A DNA stretch of 22,822 nt from a virus: IMG/VR virus record IMGVR_UViG_3300046734_000716, positions 1 through 22,822 of that record; one strand, given 5' to 3'. Below are positions 7,201 through 13,690 of the stretch, piece after piece. The notes below the pieces were generated by a model. The model had not been told where the DNA came from, did no database searches, and saw only the letters and a program-made list of their open reading frames with translations. How positions within the stretch are numbered: the stretch's first letter is position 1; each line of letters begins with the position of its first letter. The position numbers and the translations under genes were made by a program.

Positions 7201-7349
7201 ATCACCCACTTTTAACAATTCTTGCCATTGCTTTGATGGCACCATTTACAGTATTAGTGATTGCCTTAAATATAAGCAAAACTAACGACAGACATTTACG
7301 CAAGCTCAAGGAGCGTGCCGATAAAAAACAGAAAAGAAACCAACAATGA
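7197..7349 (+). CDS. Small membrane protein with basic tail
   Basis: 50 residues from ATG 7197 (ATGA overlap) to TGA 7347-7349, which overlaps the next start in the same way. Residues 4-25 (PLLTILAIALMAPFTVLVIA) form one membrane span; residues 27-50 are strongly basic and helical (LRKLKERADKKQKR), predicted to be cytoplasmic. Double ATGA coupling to both neighbours supports translation. Function unknown; superinfection exclusion or a membrane-anchored replication helper are possibilities without specific evidence. Confidence 0.6.
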   Translation: MNHPLLTILAIALMAPFTVLVIALNISKTNDRHLRKLKERADKKQKRNQQ

Positions 7350-7927
7350 AAACACCAAAAAACGCAATCGCATTGATTGCAGAACTAAAAACACCTAAGC
7401 AAAGAAAAAACAGCTTTGCAAAGTTTCAATATCGAAACGTCGAGGATATAACCCAAGCAGCCAAGCCGCTATTGGAAAAGCACAAGCTGCTTTTAAATAT
7501 TTCTGATGACCTTTACGAAGTTGATGGCCGCCTATTTGTGAAAGCAACAGCGACCATCTCAGACGGCGAGACTGCACTAGCAAGCACTGGCTACGCTGAA
7601 CTAGACTCTAGTCGTAAAGGCATGAGCATGGAGCAAATCAGCGGCTCTGCTAGTTCCTACGCTCGCAAGTATGCACTAGCCGGGCTTCTCTGCCTTGACG
7701 CTAGTGAAGACAGCGACAGCCACCAAGCACGGCACACAGTGCAGACAATTACAGCGGCACAAGCTAAAAAGTTGGAAGCCTTGCTGACTCAAACAAACTC
7801 TGATAAAGATAAATTCTTGAAGTGGCTTGGAGTTGACTCAATCAAGGATGTTCCAAAAATCGACTTTGTTAAGGCAAAGACGGTGCTTGAGAGCAAAATT
7901 CAAAACACAATCGAACCATTACAATGA
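7346..7927 (+). CDS. erf: ERF-family single-strand annealing protein
   Basis: 193 residues. The core matches the ERF superfamily of phage recombinases: FAKFQYRNVEDITQAAKPLL near residue 25, then the DGRLFVKATATISDGE strand pair, and the SGSASSYARKYALAGLLCLD signature ending in an acidic ASEDSD. These proteins bind single-stranded DNA and anneal complementary strands during recombination-dependent replication and repair. The C-terminal 60 residues (ITAAQAKKLEALL and following) look like a small helical domain often appended to ERF proteins. It is paired with the PD-(D/E)XK exonuclease immediately downstream through an ATGA overlap, the usual annealase-exonuclease arrangement (compare RecT/RecE). 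Confidence 0.88.
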   Translation: MKTPKNAIALIAELKTPKQRKNSFAKFQYRNVEDITQAAKPLLEKHKLLLNISDDLYEVDGRLFVKATATISDGETALASTGYAELDSSRKGMSMEQISGSASSYARKYALAGLLCLDASEDSDSHQARHTVQTITAAQAKKLEALLTQTNSDKDKFLKWLGVDSIKDVPKIDFVKAKTVLESKIQNTIEPLQ

Positions 7928-8772
7928 AGATTCACGAAGTAAGCAGTGCCGACTATCACACGCTGCTCAAATGCAACCGGGCTAATATATTTGCCCCGGA
8001 ATCATACCTTAGCAAATCAGTGCTTTGGGAGCTTAACAGTTCAAGTTTGTTTAAGTGGCGATTTCACCCACGGGAGTTCTCACCGACTCCAGCGATGCAG
8101 TGGGGTAGCTTAGTTGACTGTCTAACGACCACGCCAGAGTTGGTTGAAGAAGAAATAAGAATCTCACCTTTCTCAAGCTACAGAACCAAAGAAGCTAAGG
8201 AATGGCGTGATGAGCAGCTTGCAGTTGGAAAGACTATAATCACTCAAGCCCAGTTTGATGAAGGCGTTAAGGCATCAGAGATGCTAATGCAGACCAACGT
8301 GCAAAGTGCTGAGATATTTGATGGCAGTTTGAAGCAAGTAATTATTGGAGCAAAGGTTTCCGGCGTTCAGTTTAAAGGGCTAGTTGACCTTGCGCCAGTT
8401 GGTAAAGACTACCTTGTTGATTTAAAGACAACAGGCATGGATTTCACGCTTCAAGGCTTCAGCAAGGCAATCGCCAATTTTGGCTATCATGTGCAAGCCG
8501 GGCTTTACCTAGCACTCTGGAACAGCACACACCCGGAAGACACCCGGCAGCGGTTTAAAATCGTTTGGCAATCGAGCCAACCACCTTATGAAGTCTGCGT
8601 TACAGAGCTTCACCGGGATGAAATTGCGGCAGGGCTAAAGACTGCGCTAAGGTTACTTGGTAAGCTCAAACACGCTGTGCAGGAAGACCACTGGCCAATG
8701 TTGGCCGAGAACGAGACACCAATTCTAAACCGCCCGGTTTGGGCAGCTATGCAAGATGAAGACGATGTTTAA
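7924..8772 (+). CDS. PD-(D/E)XK exonuclease, exodeoxyribonuclease VIII/RecE-like
   Basis: 282 residues. The nuclease core is visible: VQFKGLVDLAP (Asp155), then YLVDLKTT with Asp166 and Lys168, and YHVQAGLYLALW with the Q..xY motif (Gln191, Tyr195). These match the PDDEXK phage exonucleases that resect double-stranded ends 5' to 3' and hand single strands to an annealase. The usual GxxxH motif before the core appears as GSLVD (Asp65 in place of His). It overlaps the ERF gene by 4 bases, so both are probably made in balance. The two together would form a phage recombination system. Confidence 0.82.
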   Translation: MKIHEVSSADYHTLLKCNRANIFAPESYLSKSVLWELNSSSLFKWRFHPREFSPTPAMQWGSLVDCLTTTPELVEEEIRISPFSSYRTKEAKEWRDEQLAVGKTIITQAQFDEGVKASEMLMQTNVQSAEIFDGSLKQVIIGAKVSGVQFKGLVDLAPVGKDYLVDLKTTGMDFTLQGFSKAIANFGYHVQAGLYLALWNSTHPEDTRQRFKIVWQSSQPPYEVCVTELHRDEIAAGLKTALRLLGKLKHAVQEDHWPMLAENETPILNRPVWAAMQDEDDV

Positions 8773-9073
8773 CCCATTCCAGCAAGATGTTCGATTTAGG
8801 ACGTTGCTCAACTTTACACTACTTGAGCAGCACGGGATTAGAACACTACGCCAAGCCCGAATCATTATAACCGTTTGCATTCAACCGGGAATCTCAACCG
8901 CTGAGTTGGCTGATGTTTGTAAAGTAGAGAATGAAACGGTAAGGGCAACAATTAAACGCTGCACCGCTTTGGGGTTAATCAAGCACAAGCGAGTGCAATC
9001 AACCGTTAATGGTGGCTTTCTAACCTATCACCCAACCGCTGACGGTCTAGCATTAGCCGACAAGCTCAAATGA
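8756..9073 (+). CDS. MarR-like winged-helix protein
   Basis: 105 residues from ATG 8756; an equally plausible ATG at 8765 would shorten it by 3 residues and reduce overlap with the exonuclease to 8 bases. The sequence reads as a winged helix: RQARIIITVCIQPGISTAELA then DVCKVENETVRATIKRCTAL (recognition helix), GLIKHKRV and a wing before YHPTADGLALADKL. The 'LT..G..LA' end is typical of MarR-like domains. It might regulate the early operon or assist replication. Its TGA overlaps the resolvase start by ATGA. Confidence 0.7.
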   Translation: MKTMFNPFQQDVRFRTLLNFTLLEQHGIRTLRQARIIITVCIQPGISTAELADVCKVENETVRATIKRCTALGLIKHKRVQSTVNGGFLTYHPTADGLALADKLK

Positions 9074-11296: not shown

Positions 11297-12067
11297 ATGA
11301 ATTATTTGAACATCCACACTGACATTTTGCGCGGTGTTGAGTTTATTGGAGCCGACCCGGTAGAGCGAGCCACATGGCTGGCATTACTTGGATGGTGTGC
11401 GACACAGGAGAACAGCGGAACGATTGGAAACTGCAAATCTTGGAAAAGTCGGCAGTGGCAACAACTTGCAGGAGTGACTGAAGATGAAGTAAAAACCACC
11501 AGCGAACTTTATGGTTTTGAAGGGGAAAACTTAGTAGTTAAATTCTACCCGGTTGAGTCTGAAGCGGCGGTGAAATCTAAACGTGAAAAAGGCAAGCTTG
11601 GTGGCCGTCCAAGAAAAGTTAAGCCAACCGAAAACCCTGATGAAATAAAGGAAAAAAACCATATGGATAACCATAAGGTTAACCATATGGGTGACCATCA
11701 GCGAAACGAAAAGAAAGGAAAGGAGAAGAAAAGAAAGGAAAAGATAACTAAGAACTCCGCAAATGCGGAGGAGTTGGATAAGGATTTGCTGCGCTCATTC
11801 TGGAACTCTGCACCGGAGCGAGCTAGGCGAAGAAGTAGCCGCAAACAGGTGGCAGATGAGTGGAAGAAAATTAAAAAATCAGATAGGCCCGACAAAAACA
11901 CAATCGTCAACGCAATCGAAGCGTGGAAAAAGTGCGACGACTGGACGAAAGACGGCGGCAGCTTTGTCCCGGGTTTACACCTATGGTTAAAAAATGAAAA
12001 GTGGTTAGATTTGCCTGAGCAGCCGGAAAAGAAAAGGACAAGAATCCTAACCAAGGAAATGCTATGA
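11297..12067 (+). CDS. Phage replication initiator/replisome organiser (lambda O-like architecture)
   Basis: 256 residues. The N-terminal domain (about 1-85) has ERATWLALLGWCATQENSGTIGNC and a following helix-turn-helix typical of winged-helix origin-binding domains. Residues 95-155 are a basic linker with a GGRPRK AT-hook-like motif and a (N/D)Hxx tetrapeptide repeat at 121-136. The C-terminal part, AIEAWKKCDDWTKDGGSFVP and LHLWLKNEKWLDLPE, matches the helicase-loading end of phage initiators (W....GG.FVP....WL....W). It should bind the origin and load the DnaB-type helicase encoded next (4-base ATGA overlap). The linker DNA carries an origin-like repeat array, as in lambda O. Confidence 0.78.
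   Translation: MNYLNIHTDILRGVEFIGADPVERATWLALLGWCATQENSGTIGNCKSWKSRQWQQLAGVTEDEVKTTSELYGFEGENLVVKFYPVESEAAVKSKREKGKLGGRPRKVKPTENPDEIKEKNHMDNHKVNHMGDHQRNEKKGKEKKRKEKITKNSANAEELDKDLLRSFWNSAPERARRRSSRKQVADEWKKIKKSDRPDKNTIVNAIEAWKKCDDWTKDGGSFVPGLHLWLKNEKWLDLPEQPEKKRTRILTKEML
11658..11775 (+). other. Candidate replication origin: four 12-bp iterons, purine tract, inverted repeat
   Basis: Inside the initiator gene four 12-bp direct repeats run head to tail: 11658-11669 ACCATATGGATA, 11670-11681 ACCATAAGGTTA, 11682-11693 ACCATATGGGTG and a degenerate ACCATCAGCGAA at 11694-11705. They are followed by 37 uninterrupted purines (11708-11744) and then an inverted repeat, CTCCGC-AAAT-GCGGAG (11755-11770), extendable with AACTCC/GGAGTT. 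The lambda origin, also inside its initiator gene, has the same order: iterons, an asymmetric purine-rich/A-T tract, an inverted repeat. The repeats also encode a protein repeat, so codon-level duplication is an alternative. Confidence 0.6.
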
Positions 12068-13365
12068 ACGAAATCCAAAAACCGACAGCACTGGAAGCTG
12101 AAAAATATGTTCTCAGCGTGGTGATGCAAAAGCTACCCGGTTGGGATGAGAAACCGATACAACCGGAATGGTTCTACTCACAGCACTATCGTCAACTCTA
12201 CGAATTTGCAACGAGCAACAAGCTTCCGGCTGATGTGCAAGGTGACTTGTCCTTGACCGTTGAAGCACTCAAGCAGCGCGGAATGATTGACGGAACTGAT
12301 GGCGTGGCTGAAATTGCAAAGATTCTTATTCATGCTCCAAGCATTAGCCACTTTGGGCAAAGCATCGAAGCAATGCGGGATTGTCACAGCAGACGGCTGG
12401 CGATTAATGCAGCCGAAAACCTTGCAGAGCGAGCAGCCGACATGAACGACAAAACGGGCTTCATCGAAGCAACCGGGCAGCCAATGACGGAAGTAGCCGA
12501 ATCAGCAACCGACACGGAGACAACCAGAGACCGGGCAGCATTGCTGAAAGCGGTGGCTGATGAATTTGCTGCTTTGGTTGATGGTAAAACCCAGCCAAAT
12601 GGTTTTGAAGTTTCACTGTCCACGCTTTCGGCAGCTTTGCGGGGATTTAAAACGCCACGCTACTGCGTGATTGCAGGATTTCCCGGGAGCGGCAAGACAT
12701 TGCTTGCCGGGCAGTTTCTGACAGACATTGCAAGCACCGGGACACCTTGCCTGATGATTTCTTGTGAGATGACAGCCCAGCAAATCATGCAAAGGTTCAT
12801 AGGGACATATGGCAGGTTACCGTCTGAATTGCTCTCAGACCCGCTCTCATACGCCCGGAAGCAAAATAGGCGAACTGTATCCAAAGAAGAGCTAAATGCC
12901 TTTAGAAAGGCTTACAGGGCCATTAAAGATATGCCGCTGCATTTTGAAGAGCCAGTCTCACCGAGAATCGGTCAAATTATTACCATGATACGGCGAGCAC
13001 ACAAACGCCACGGCGTGAGAGTGGTTGGAATCGATTATCTGCAACTTATCCAAGTCGCTGATGCCAGTAGCAAGGAACAGGAATTGACTCAGATTTCACA
13101 CGCTTTGCAAGGTATTGCCAAGGAGCTAGATTTGCTTATTTTCGTGCTTTCTCAGCAGAACAAGGAAGGACACCTAAAATATGCCACATCCATCAACGAA
13201 GATGCTGACTACGTGCTTTCACTGGTGCAAGAAATGGATGAAAAGGATGATGACTATCTTTCTGTTACTGGTATTACAATCAAGAAAGACAGGCACACCG
13301 GACGCTCTGGTTTGCTGCTGCCAATCGTTAGAGATGCAGACAAAATCTACTTTCGCGAGTCATAA
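12064..13365 (+). CDS. Replicative DnaB-type helicase
   Basis: 433 residues. The N-terminal domain (about 5-110) begins ALEAEKYVLSVVMQ, as in DnaB N-domains. A linker helix region leads to the RecA-type motor: Walker A GFPGSGKT (205-212), SCEMT (about 233-237), Walker B VVGIDYLQLI with Asp324, and the LSQQNKE motif (363-367) after it. ENEDADYV-type signatures appear as INEDADYVLSL near 378. The enzyme would form a hexamer on single-stranded DNA and unwind the fork 5' to 3' using ATP. It overlaps the initiator gene by ATGA, the usual initiator-helicase pair. An AGGA sits before the ATG, one of the better ribosome sites here. Confidence 0.92.
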   Translation: MNEIQKPTALEAEKYVLSVVMQKLPGWDEKPIQPEWFYSQHYRQLYEFATSNKLPADVQGDLSLTVEALKQRGMIDGTDGVAEIAKILIHAPSISHFGQSIEAMRDCHSRRLAINAAENLAERAADMNDKTGFIEATGQPMTEVAESATDTETTRDRAALLKAVADEFAALVDGKTQPNGFEVSLSTLSAALRGFKTPRYCVIAGFPGSGKTLLAGQFLTDIASTGTPCLMISCEMTAQQIMQRFIGTYGRLPSELLSDPLSYARKQNRRTVSKEELNAFRKAYRAIKDMPLHFEEPVSPRIGQIITMIRRAHKRHGVRVVGIDYLQLIQVADASSKEQELTQISHALQGIAKELDLLIFVLSQQNKEGHLKYATSINEDADYVLSLVQEMDEKDDDYLSVTGITIKKDRHTGRSGLLLPIVRDADKIYFRES

Positions 13366-13411: not shown

Positions 13412-13690
13412 ATGAAACGCAAGCCAGACACAAAGCTGGGTGAAATTATTGAAATTGAACCGGAAGAAGTATATGAAAATGGCTTCCGCAAATCTCGCTT
13501 TGTAATCGAAACACCCGGAGCTTATTCTCAAGAATTGCTTTTTGAGTTACACAATAACAAGGCTCACATTATTGCCGCTTACCAGCCCGGTGACTTCGTC
13601 AGAGTCTCTTACGACATCAAAGGCAATCGGGGGACAGACAATAAACGCTACACAAATCTCGTTGCTTGGCAAATTGAATGTGCTGAGTGA
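13412..13690 (+). CDS. DUF3127-like OB-fold protein, probable SSB-like
   Basis: 92 residues. KLGEIIEIEPEEVYENGFRK then SRFVIETPGAYSQELLFEL, a PGDFVRVSYDIKGNRG strand and RYTNLVAWQIE at the end match the layout of the DUF3127 family, whose members are predicted OB-fold single-strand-binding-like proteins ('I..I.PEE.Y.NG..K..FVIET', 'NLVAW.IE'). It follows the helicase by 46 bases, in an A-rich leader with no Shine-Dalgarno. It probably protects single strands at the fork alongside the second OB-fold candidate downstream. DUF3127 is common in Bacteroidota but is found elsewhere, so it is weak host evidence. Confidence 0.7.
   Translation: MKRKPDTKLGEIIEIEPEEVYENGFRKSRFVIETPGAYSQELLFELHNNKAHIIAAYQPGDFVRVSYDIKGNRGTDNKRYTNLVAWQIECAE

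Follow-up and report, generated by a model that had tools for sequence, protein, structure and literature searches.

A phage initiator gene that probably contains the origin of replication

Results

The initiator gene and its neighbours

The window analysed in this study is the whole 22,822-nucleotide stretch of the IMG/VR virus record IMGVR_UViG_3300046734_000716. At positions 11297-12067 (+ strand) it carries a gene for a protein of 256 amino acids, which we assign as the replication initiator from its matches to PHROG families of replication initiation and primosomal proteins (phrog_270 2.5e-11, phrog_9327 2.5e-10, phrog_9474 1e-9). These matches cover the C-terminal two thirds of the protein, with the C-terminal part matching the primosomal protein phrog_9327. 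A Pfam search returned no match, DUF1376 included, and the Phage_rep_O model (PF04492), which recognizes lambda O and P22 gp18 at 1e-36 to 1e-38, gave none to the window initiator at E<=1; an HMM of the window's initiator family reached lambda O with an E value of 0.16. Judged by its sequence the initiator is outside Phage_rep_O, and no sequence relationship to lambda O or to the P22 initiator was detected.

The N-terminal domain (11297-11611, + strand) is predicted by AlphaFold2, in a model built from 40 relatives, to be a winged helix (pLDDT 92.7), and is the presumed binder of the repeats described below. A Foldseek search of BFVD with this model retrieved replisome organizers, DUF1376 proteins and Lin1244-type phage proteins with probabilities of up to 1.00 (E 1e-3 to 1e-1, TM about 0.5-0.65), so that the predicted fold appears similar to that of the DUF1376 and Lin1244-type phage primosomal proteins. 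The winged-helix matches in the PDB were weak, with the initiator N-domains 4pql and 4pt7 (Z about 3.6-3.8) tied with CRP-type folds. The C-terminal domain (11776-12067, + strand) is predicted to be helical, with a mediocre AlphaFold2 model (pLDDT 71) for which a fold search of the PDB found no match; from the comparison of relatives it behaves as an exchangeable module, and its function can only be proposed.

The initiator stop is overlapped by a gene for a phage DnaB-like replicative helicase (12064-13365, + strand; PF03796 7.6e-33, phrog_19 9.7e-54), which matches P22 gp12 with an E value of 8e-16. A DnaB-like helicase gene also follows the initiator in L006 and in the Akkermansia phages Chambord and Chantilly; in six other relatives (L034, L052, L083, L105, L012, L088) its place is taken by a DnaC-like loader, and therefore helicase and loader alternate behind similar initiators. 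A fixed pairing of C-domain and helicase is unsupported: the C-domain of L027 is unrelated to that of the window, at a helicase similarity of 0.89. The preliminary description had placed the origin between a DNA-binding and a helicase-loading domain of the initiator. The site does lie where stated, after the N-terminal domain and ahead of the C-terminal part, but the helicase-loading label is unsupported, since L027 has nearly the same helicase with an unrelated C-domain, and L012 combines the window's type of C-domain with a DnaC-like loader.

Other genes can be recognized nearby. A single-strand DNA binding protein-like gene (13412-13690, phrog_4932) lies 3' of the helicase; upstream of the replication genes an ERF-like annealing protein and an exonuclease VIII-like gene form a recombination module (7346-8772), and a small MarR/HTH-like protein (8756-9073) shows weak matches to the replication initiation families phrog_1032 and phrog_8540.

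Anatomy of the initiator linker

Between the two domains the gene contains three elements, in the order iterons, purine tract, inverted repeat that had been described for it. The iteron array (11657-11704, + strand) consists, as claimed, of four abutting 12-bp units, three of them alike, and begins one base upstream of the start previously given (11658): AACCATATGGAT (11657-11668), AACCATAAGGTT (11669-11680), AACCATATGGGT (11681-11692) and the degenerate GACCATCAGCGA (11693-11704). Units 1-3 are near-palindromic (10 of 12 positions self-complementary). Three tandem 12-mers agreeing at >=9/12 positions occur nowhere else in the window, and in none of 40 first-order resamples. The least stable duplex of the origin region spans approximately 11641-11700, which falls in the top 2-5% of the window without being its minimum.

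The array is followed by an all-purine tract of 37 nt and 68% AT (11708-11744, + strand), the presumed unwinding element. Both its length and its place in the order of elements agree with the preliminary description; it is the longest purine run in the window, where the next longest measures 25 nt and essentially no run of 37 nt is expected. The inverted repeat CTCCGC-AAAT-GCGGAG (11755-11770), which had likewise been noticed after the tract, extends into a longer imperfect form (11753-11775) and is kept in near relatives. By itself it is weak evidence when set against synonymous shuffles (p 0.06), and hairpin enrichment in the window's initiator family is also weak (6 of 39 genes individually, combined p 2e-4).

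The linker is constrained as DNA

An alignment of the window with three near relatives (L022, L024, L026) was used to examine whether synonymous sites in the repeats are conserved, the lack of which had been named as grounds for rejecting the origin. None of the 14 degenerate iteron codons varies synonymously, versus 117 of 242 gene-wide (p=7e-5), and all the 16-codon windows without synonymous change overlap the array; synonymous change is absent over ~45 bp at the iterons.

A second approach compared the repeats with a null in which the protein is kept and synonymous codons are permuted. For the window gene alone the excess of repeats is marginal (p=0.076), because the encoded protein repeats as well: the 12-bp period corresponds to four codons and encodes NHMDNHKVNHMGDH. 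The test was therefore extended to 39 representatives, drawn from 75 distinct relatives of the N-domain; 28 of the 39 have linker repeats above the synonymous null at p<0.05 (combined p 5e-38), as compared with only 6 of 117 control windows from other genes of the same loci; the linkers of L031, L081, L084 and L103 had no significant repeats in this test. Pooled over the relatives, the repeat lags peak at 11-12, 22-24, 34-36 and 45-48 bp, with a family-wide period of ~11.5 bp. Lags such as 11, 22, 34 and 46, and likewise 23 and 35, break the reading frame; not being multiples of three, they cannot be produced by a protein repeat. In 22 of the 39 representatives, copies of the commonest repeated 6-mer fall in two or more reading frames, and AACCATATGGTT is also present in L009 and L010 in a frame other than that of the window. 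On this comparative sequence evidence the iteron array is selected as DNA.

The purine tract by itself is seldom significant against the synonymous null when genes are taken one by one, and for this reason codon choice was pooled across genes, comparing the most K/R/E/G-rich 12-codon window of each with the codons elsewhere. In the tract, glycine is encoded by GGR in a proportion of 81:13 (338:382 elsewhere), arginine by AGR in a proportion of 50:26 (159:523 elsewhere), and Glu exceeds Asp by 102:5 (963:501 elsewhere), each with p about 1e-13. This bias indicates that the tract was chosen for purines, and that charge is not its sole cause. The longest purine run of the gene sits at the position of the tract in 72 of 75 relatives. 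Its length varies by whole units between relatives (GATAAA in L006/L007, GGAGAA in L011-L017), a slippage-like pattern from which tract length seems to be loosely constrained. One linker of a different kind (L038:3001-3876) carries, beside a purine run, five copies of a 5-bp-spaced unit (AACGGA) and no 11-12 bp iterons.

Exchange of modules among relatives

In L006/L007 the N-domain is kept and the C-domain replaced. L011-L017 have the window's type of C-domain (44-47% identity) with a different N-domain, and their array, made up of four strict 11-bp units (GCCACCTCCGT), again precedes a purine tract. The N-domains of L083 and L104 are 94% identical, their C-domains unrelated and their arrays nearly the same (0.93); L064 and L096 have similar C-domains (0.91), N-domains only 57% identical and unlike arrays (0.01). 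From these swaps it follows that arrays travel with the N-domain. Since the array adjoins the N-domain, part of this co-inheritance is simple linkage. Over pairs with unrelated C-domains the rank correlation between N-domain and iteron similarity is weak (0.05), iteron likeness being limited to pairs above ~65% N-domain identity.

Comparison with known origins

The closest known layout is that of P22 and phage L (initiator, then DnaB-type helicase), not that of lambda (O, then the loader P). As in the window, iterons lie inside the P22 initiator gene 18 and are followed by an AT-rich stretch, a hairpin (CCCCCTTACCCCCTAAAGGGGG) and the DnaB-like gene 12; in phage L, six imprecise 11-bp repeats inside the initiator gene 18, upstream of a DnaB-type helicase, have been termed the likely origin (PMC8022706). 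Unlike the window initiator, P22 gp18 belongs to Phage_rep_O, and the iteron sequences of P22 and L are unrelated to those of the window.

The iterons and AT-rich region of lambda are proven origin elements (PMC7466680), and its ori resembles the window in that four near-palindromic repeats, A/purine-rich DNA and an inverted repeat succeed one another midway through the initiator gene. When lambda O was run as a positive control with the same script, its iterons were recovered (p=0.002), with the longest purine run directly after them and then the inverted repeat. The differences are that lambda iterons measure 18-19 bp and are about 20-24 bp apart, as opposed to the abutting 12-bp units of the window, and that O is followed by the loader gene P rather than by a DnaB-like helicase. 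The preliminary description called the origin lambda-like; P22 and phage L are closer, and the initiator is outside Phage_rep_O.

In SPP1, oriL is located within gene 38, which encodes the replisome organizer gp38 and contains direct repeats and an AT-rich unwinding element (PMC6316719), an arrangement like that seen in the window; the fold search with the window's N-domain also retrieved replisome organizers. SPP1 differs in its separate loader gp39 and its second origin, oriR.

A recurrent hairpin in initiator genes

Prompted by the P22-type hairpin, we scanned viral contigs for similar elements. The pattern CCCCCTNANNCCCCCN{1,4}GGGGGATG had six occurrences, of which five lie in the linkers of initiators; two looser forms had at least 204, with at least 160 of these inside same-strand ORFs of 120 aa or more. 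A hairpin CCCCCTNA(NN)CCCCC-loop-GGGGG can be seen mid-gene in many unrelated phage initiators, after iterons and an AT-rich stretch (L112-L310; P22 L111:1321-1560). Among the matches listed, phrog_678 (O-like) by itself accounts for 40 of 89 proteins of hairpin ORFs, and many of the rest belong with other initiator families; the Pfam families represented among the matches listed are HTH_36, DUF1376, Phage_rep_O and Lin1244_N. After the removal of eight loci (five apparent non-initiators by eye and three of the window's family), 103 ORFs remained among the matches listed. In these the hairpin sits at 0.41-0.67 of the ORF length (5-95%), upstream repeats exceed the synonymous null in 79 of the 103, and the 50 nt preceding the hairpin are 65% AT versus 47% gene-wide. 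The mirror pattern, with C and G exchanged, occurs in 40 places, with an initiator match in only 1 of 21 ORFs scanned. Since initiator matches are far above this control, the hairpin appears, from these sequence comparisons, to recur as a third element of origins that lie within initiator genes.

Discussion

The anatomy of the linker, together with the comparative evidence, leads us to conclude with a probability of roughly 0.9 that 11657-11770 is the origin of replication of the phage, contained within the gene for its own initiator. Our analyses document constraint at the DNA level, an ordered layout, conservation and modular exchange of these elements. The preliminary proposal of an origin buried in the initiator gene is borne out by synonymous invariance, a frame-breaking ~11.5-bp periodicity and repeats in several frames, as well as by co-inheritance with the N-domain, the purine codons of the tract and the neighbouring helicase or loader genes. 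The GC skew of the window is uninformative, showing no more than a change of slope near 11 kb that is confounded by the one-strand gene layout, and the DNA of the origin region had no similarity match to annotated phages.

Our best reading is a theta-type origin of the lambda/P22 kind. Replication would start at 11657-11770, where the N-terminal winged-helix domain would bind the 12-bp iterons; with these about one helical turn apart, several copies of the initiator could assemble along a single face of the helix. Their assembly would melt the neighbouring tract, which is AT-rich and all-purine, and the DnaB-like helicase encoded by the next gene would be placed on the opened strand. The hairpin would mark where the melted stretch ends on the far side; it may help to expose a strand, help to position helicase or primase, or act as a boundary. 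For the C5/G5 hairpin a similar role (positioning of primase or helicase, or a limit to melting) is possible. The window's different stem may correspond to the same element; whether the C5/G5 hairpin is a general third element, of which CTCCGC/GCGGAG is a variant, kept or acquired by unrelated initiator families for a direct role at the start of replication, we regard as an evenly balanced question.

Alternatively, the array might serve in autoregulation, partition or copy control, with the initiator or a different phage protein bound to it. Plasmid arrays of this kind also act as operators or incompatibility sites, and this general precedent is what speaks for such a function; we nevertheless consider it very improbable, because the array lies inside the gene, well beyond its start, with a purine/AT tract and then a helicase or loader gene downstream, and because in lambda an origin of this layout is proven (PMC7466680), while gene 38 of SPP1 contains oriL (PMC6316719).

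Still less probable is that the repeats and the Lys/Glu-rich stretch are protein features, a His-rich repeat and a charged flexible linker, of which the DNA repeats are a mere reflection. The four-codon period encoding NHMDNHKVNHMGDH and the window's own p=0.076 would be expected if this were so, but the explanation is already contradicted by relatives with 11-bp and mixed 11/12-bp periods across frames, and it does not agree with iterons lacking synonymous change or with the preference of the tract for GGR and AGR codons and for Glu over Asp. Least probable of all is a slippage hot spot, with functionless tandem repeats and purine microsatellites. Slippage would account for the unit-wise differences in tract length (GATAAA in L006/L007, GGAGAA in L011-L017); it does not predict a single ~11.5-bp period in unrelated linkers, the lack of synonymous change over ~45 bp, or the fixed order of iterons, tract and hairpin. 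We accept neither protein repeats nor slippage as the sole cause.

Our search of open-access papers found no description of an origin for the window's phage group, and no paper that treats the origin of the window or presents the hairpin as an element common to phage origins. If the embedded-origin reading is right, an origin is located with a precision of about 120 bp in a group of phages akin to those of Akkermansia (Verrucomicrobiota), and initiators of a family for which Pfam has no model use the lambda-type solution. The combination of frame-breaking repeats, purine tract and hairpin in an initiator linker may offer a sequence-only recipe for locating the origins of uncultured phages. Because the hairpin recurs, what it does at phage origins is open to direct testing, and matched pairs of N-domain and iterons with swapped C-domains are natural material for decoding the residues that would determine iteron specificity.
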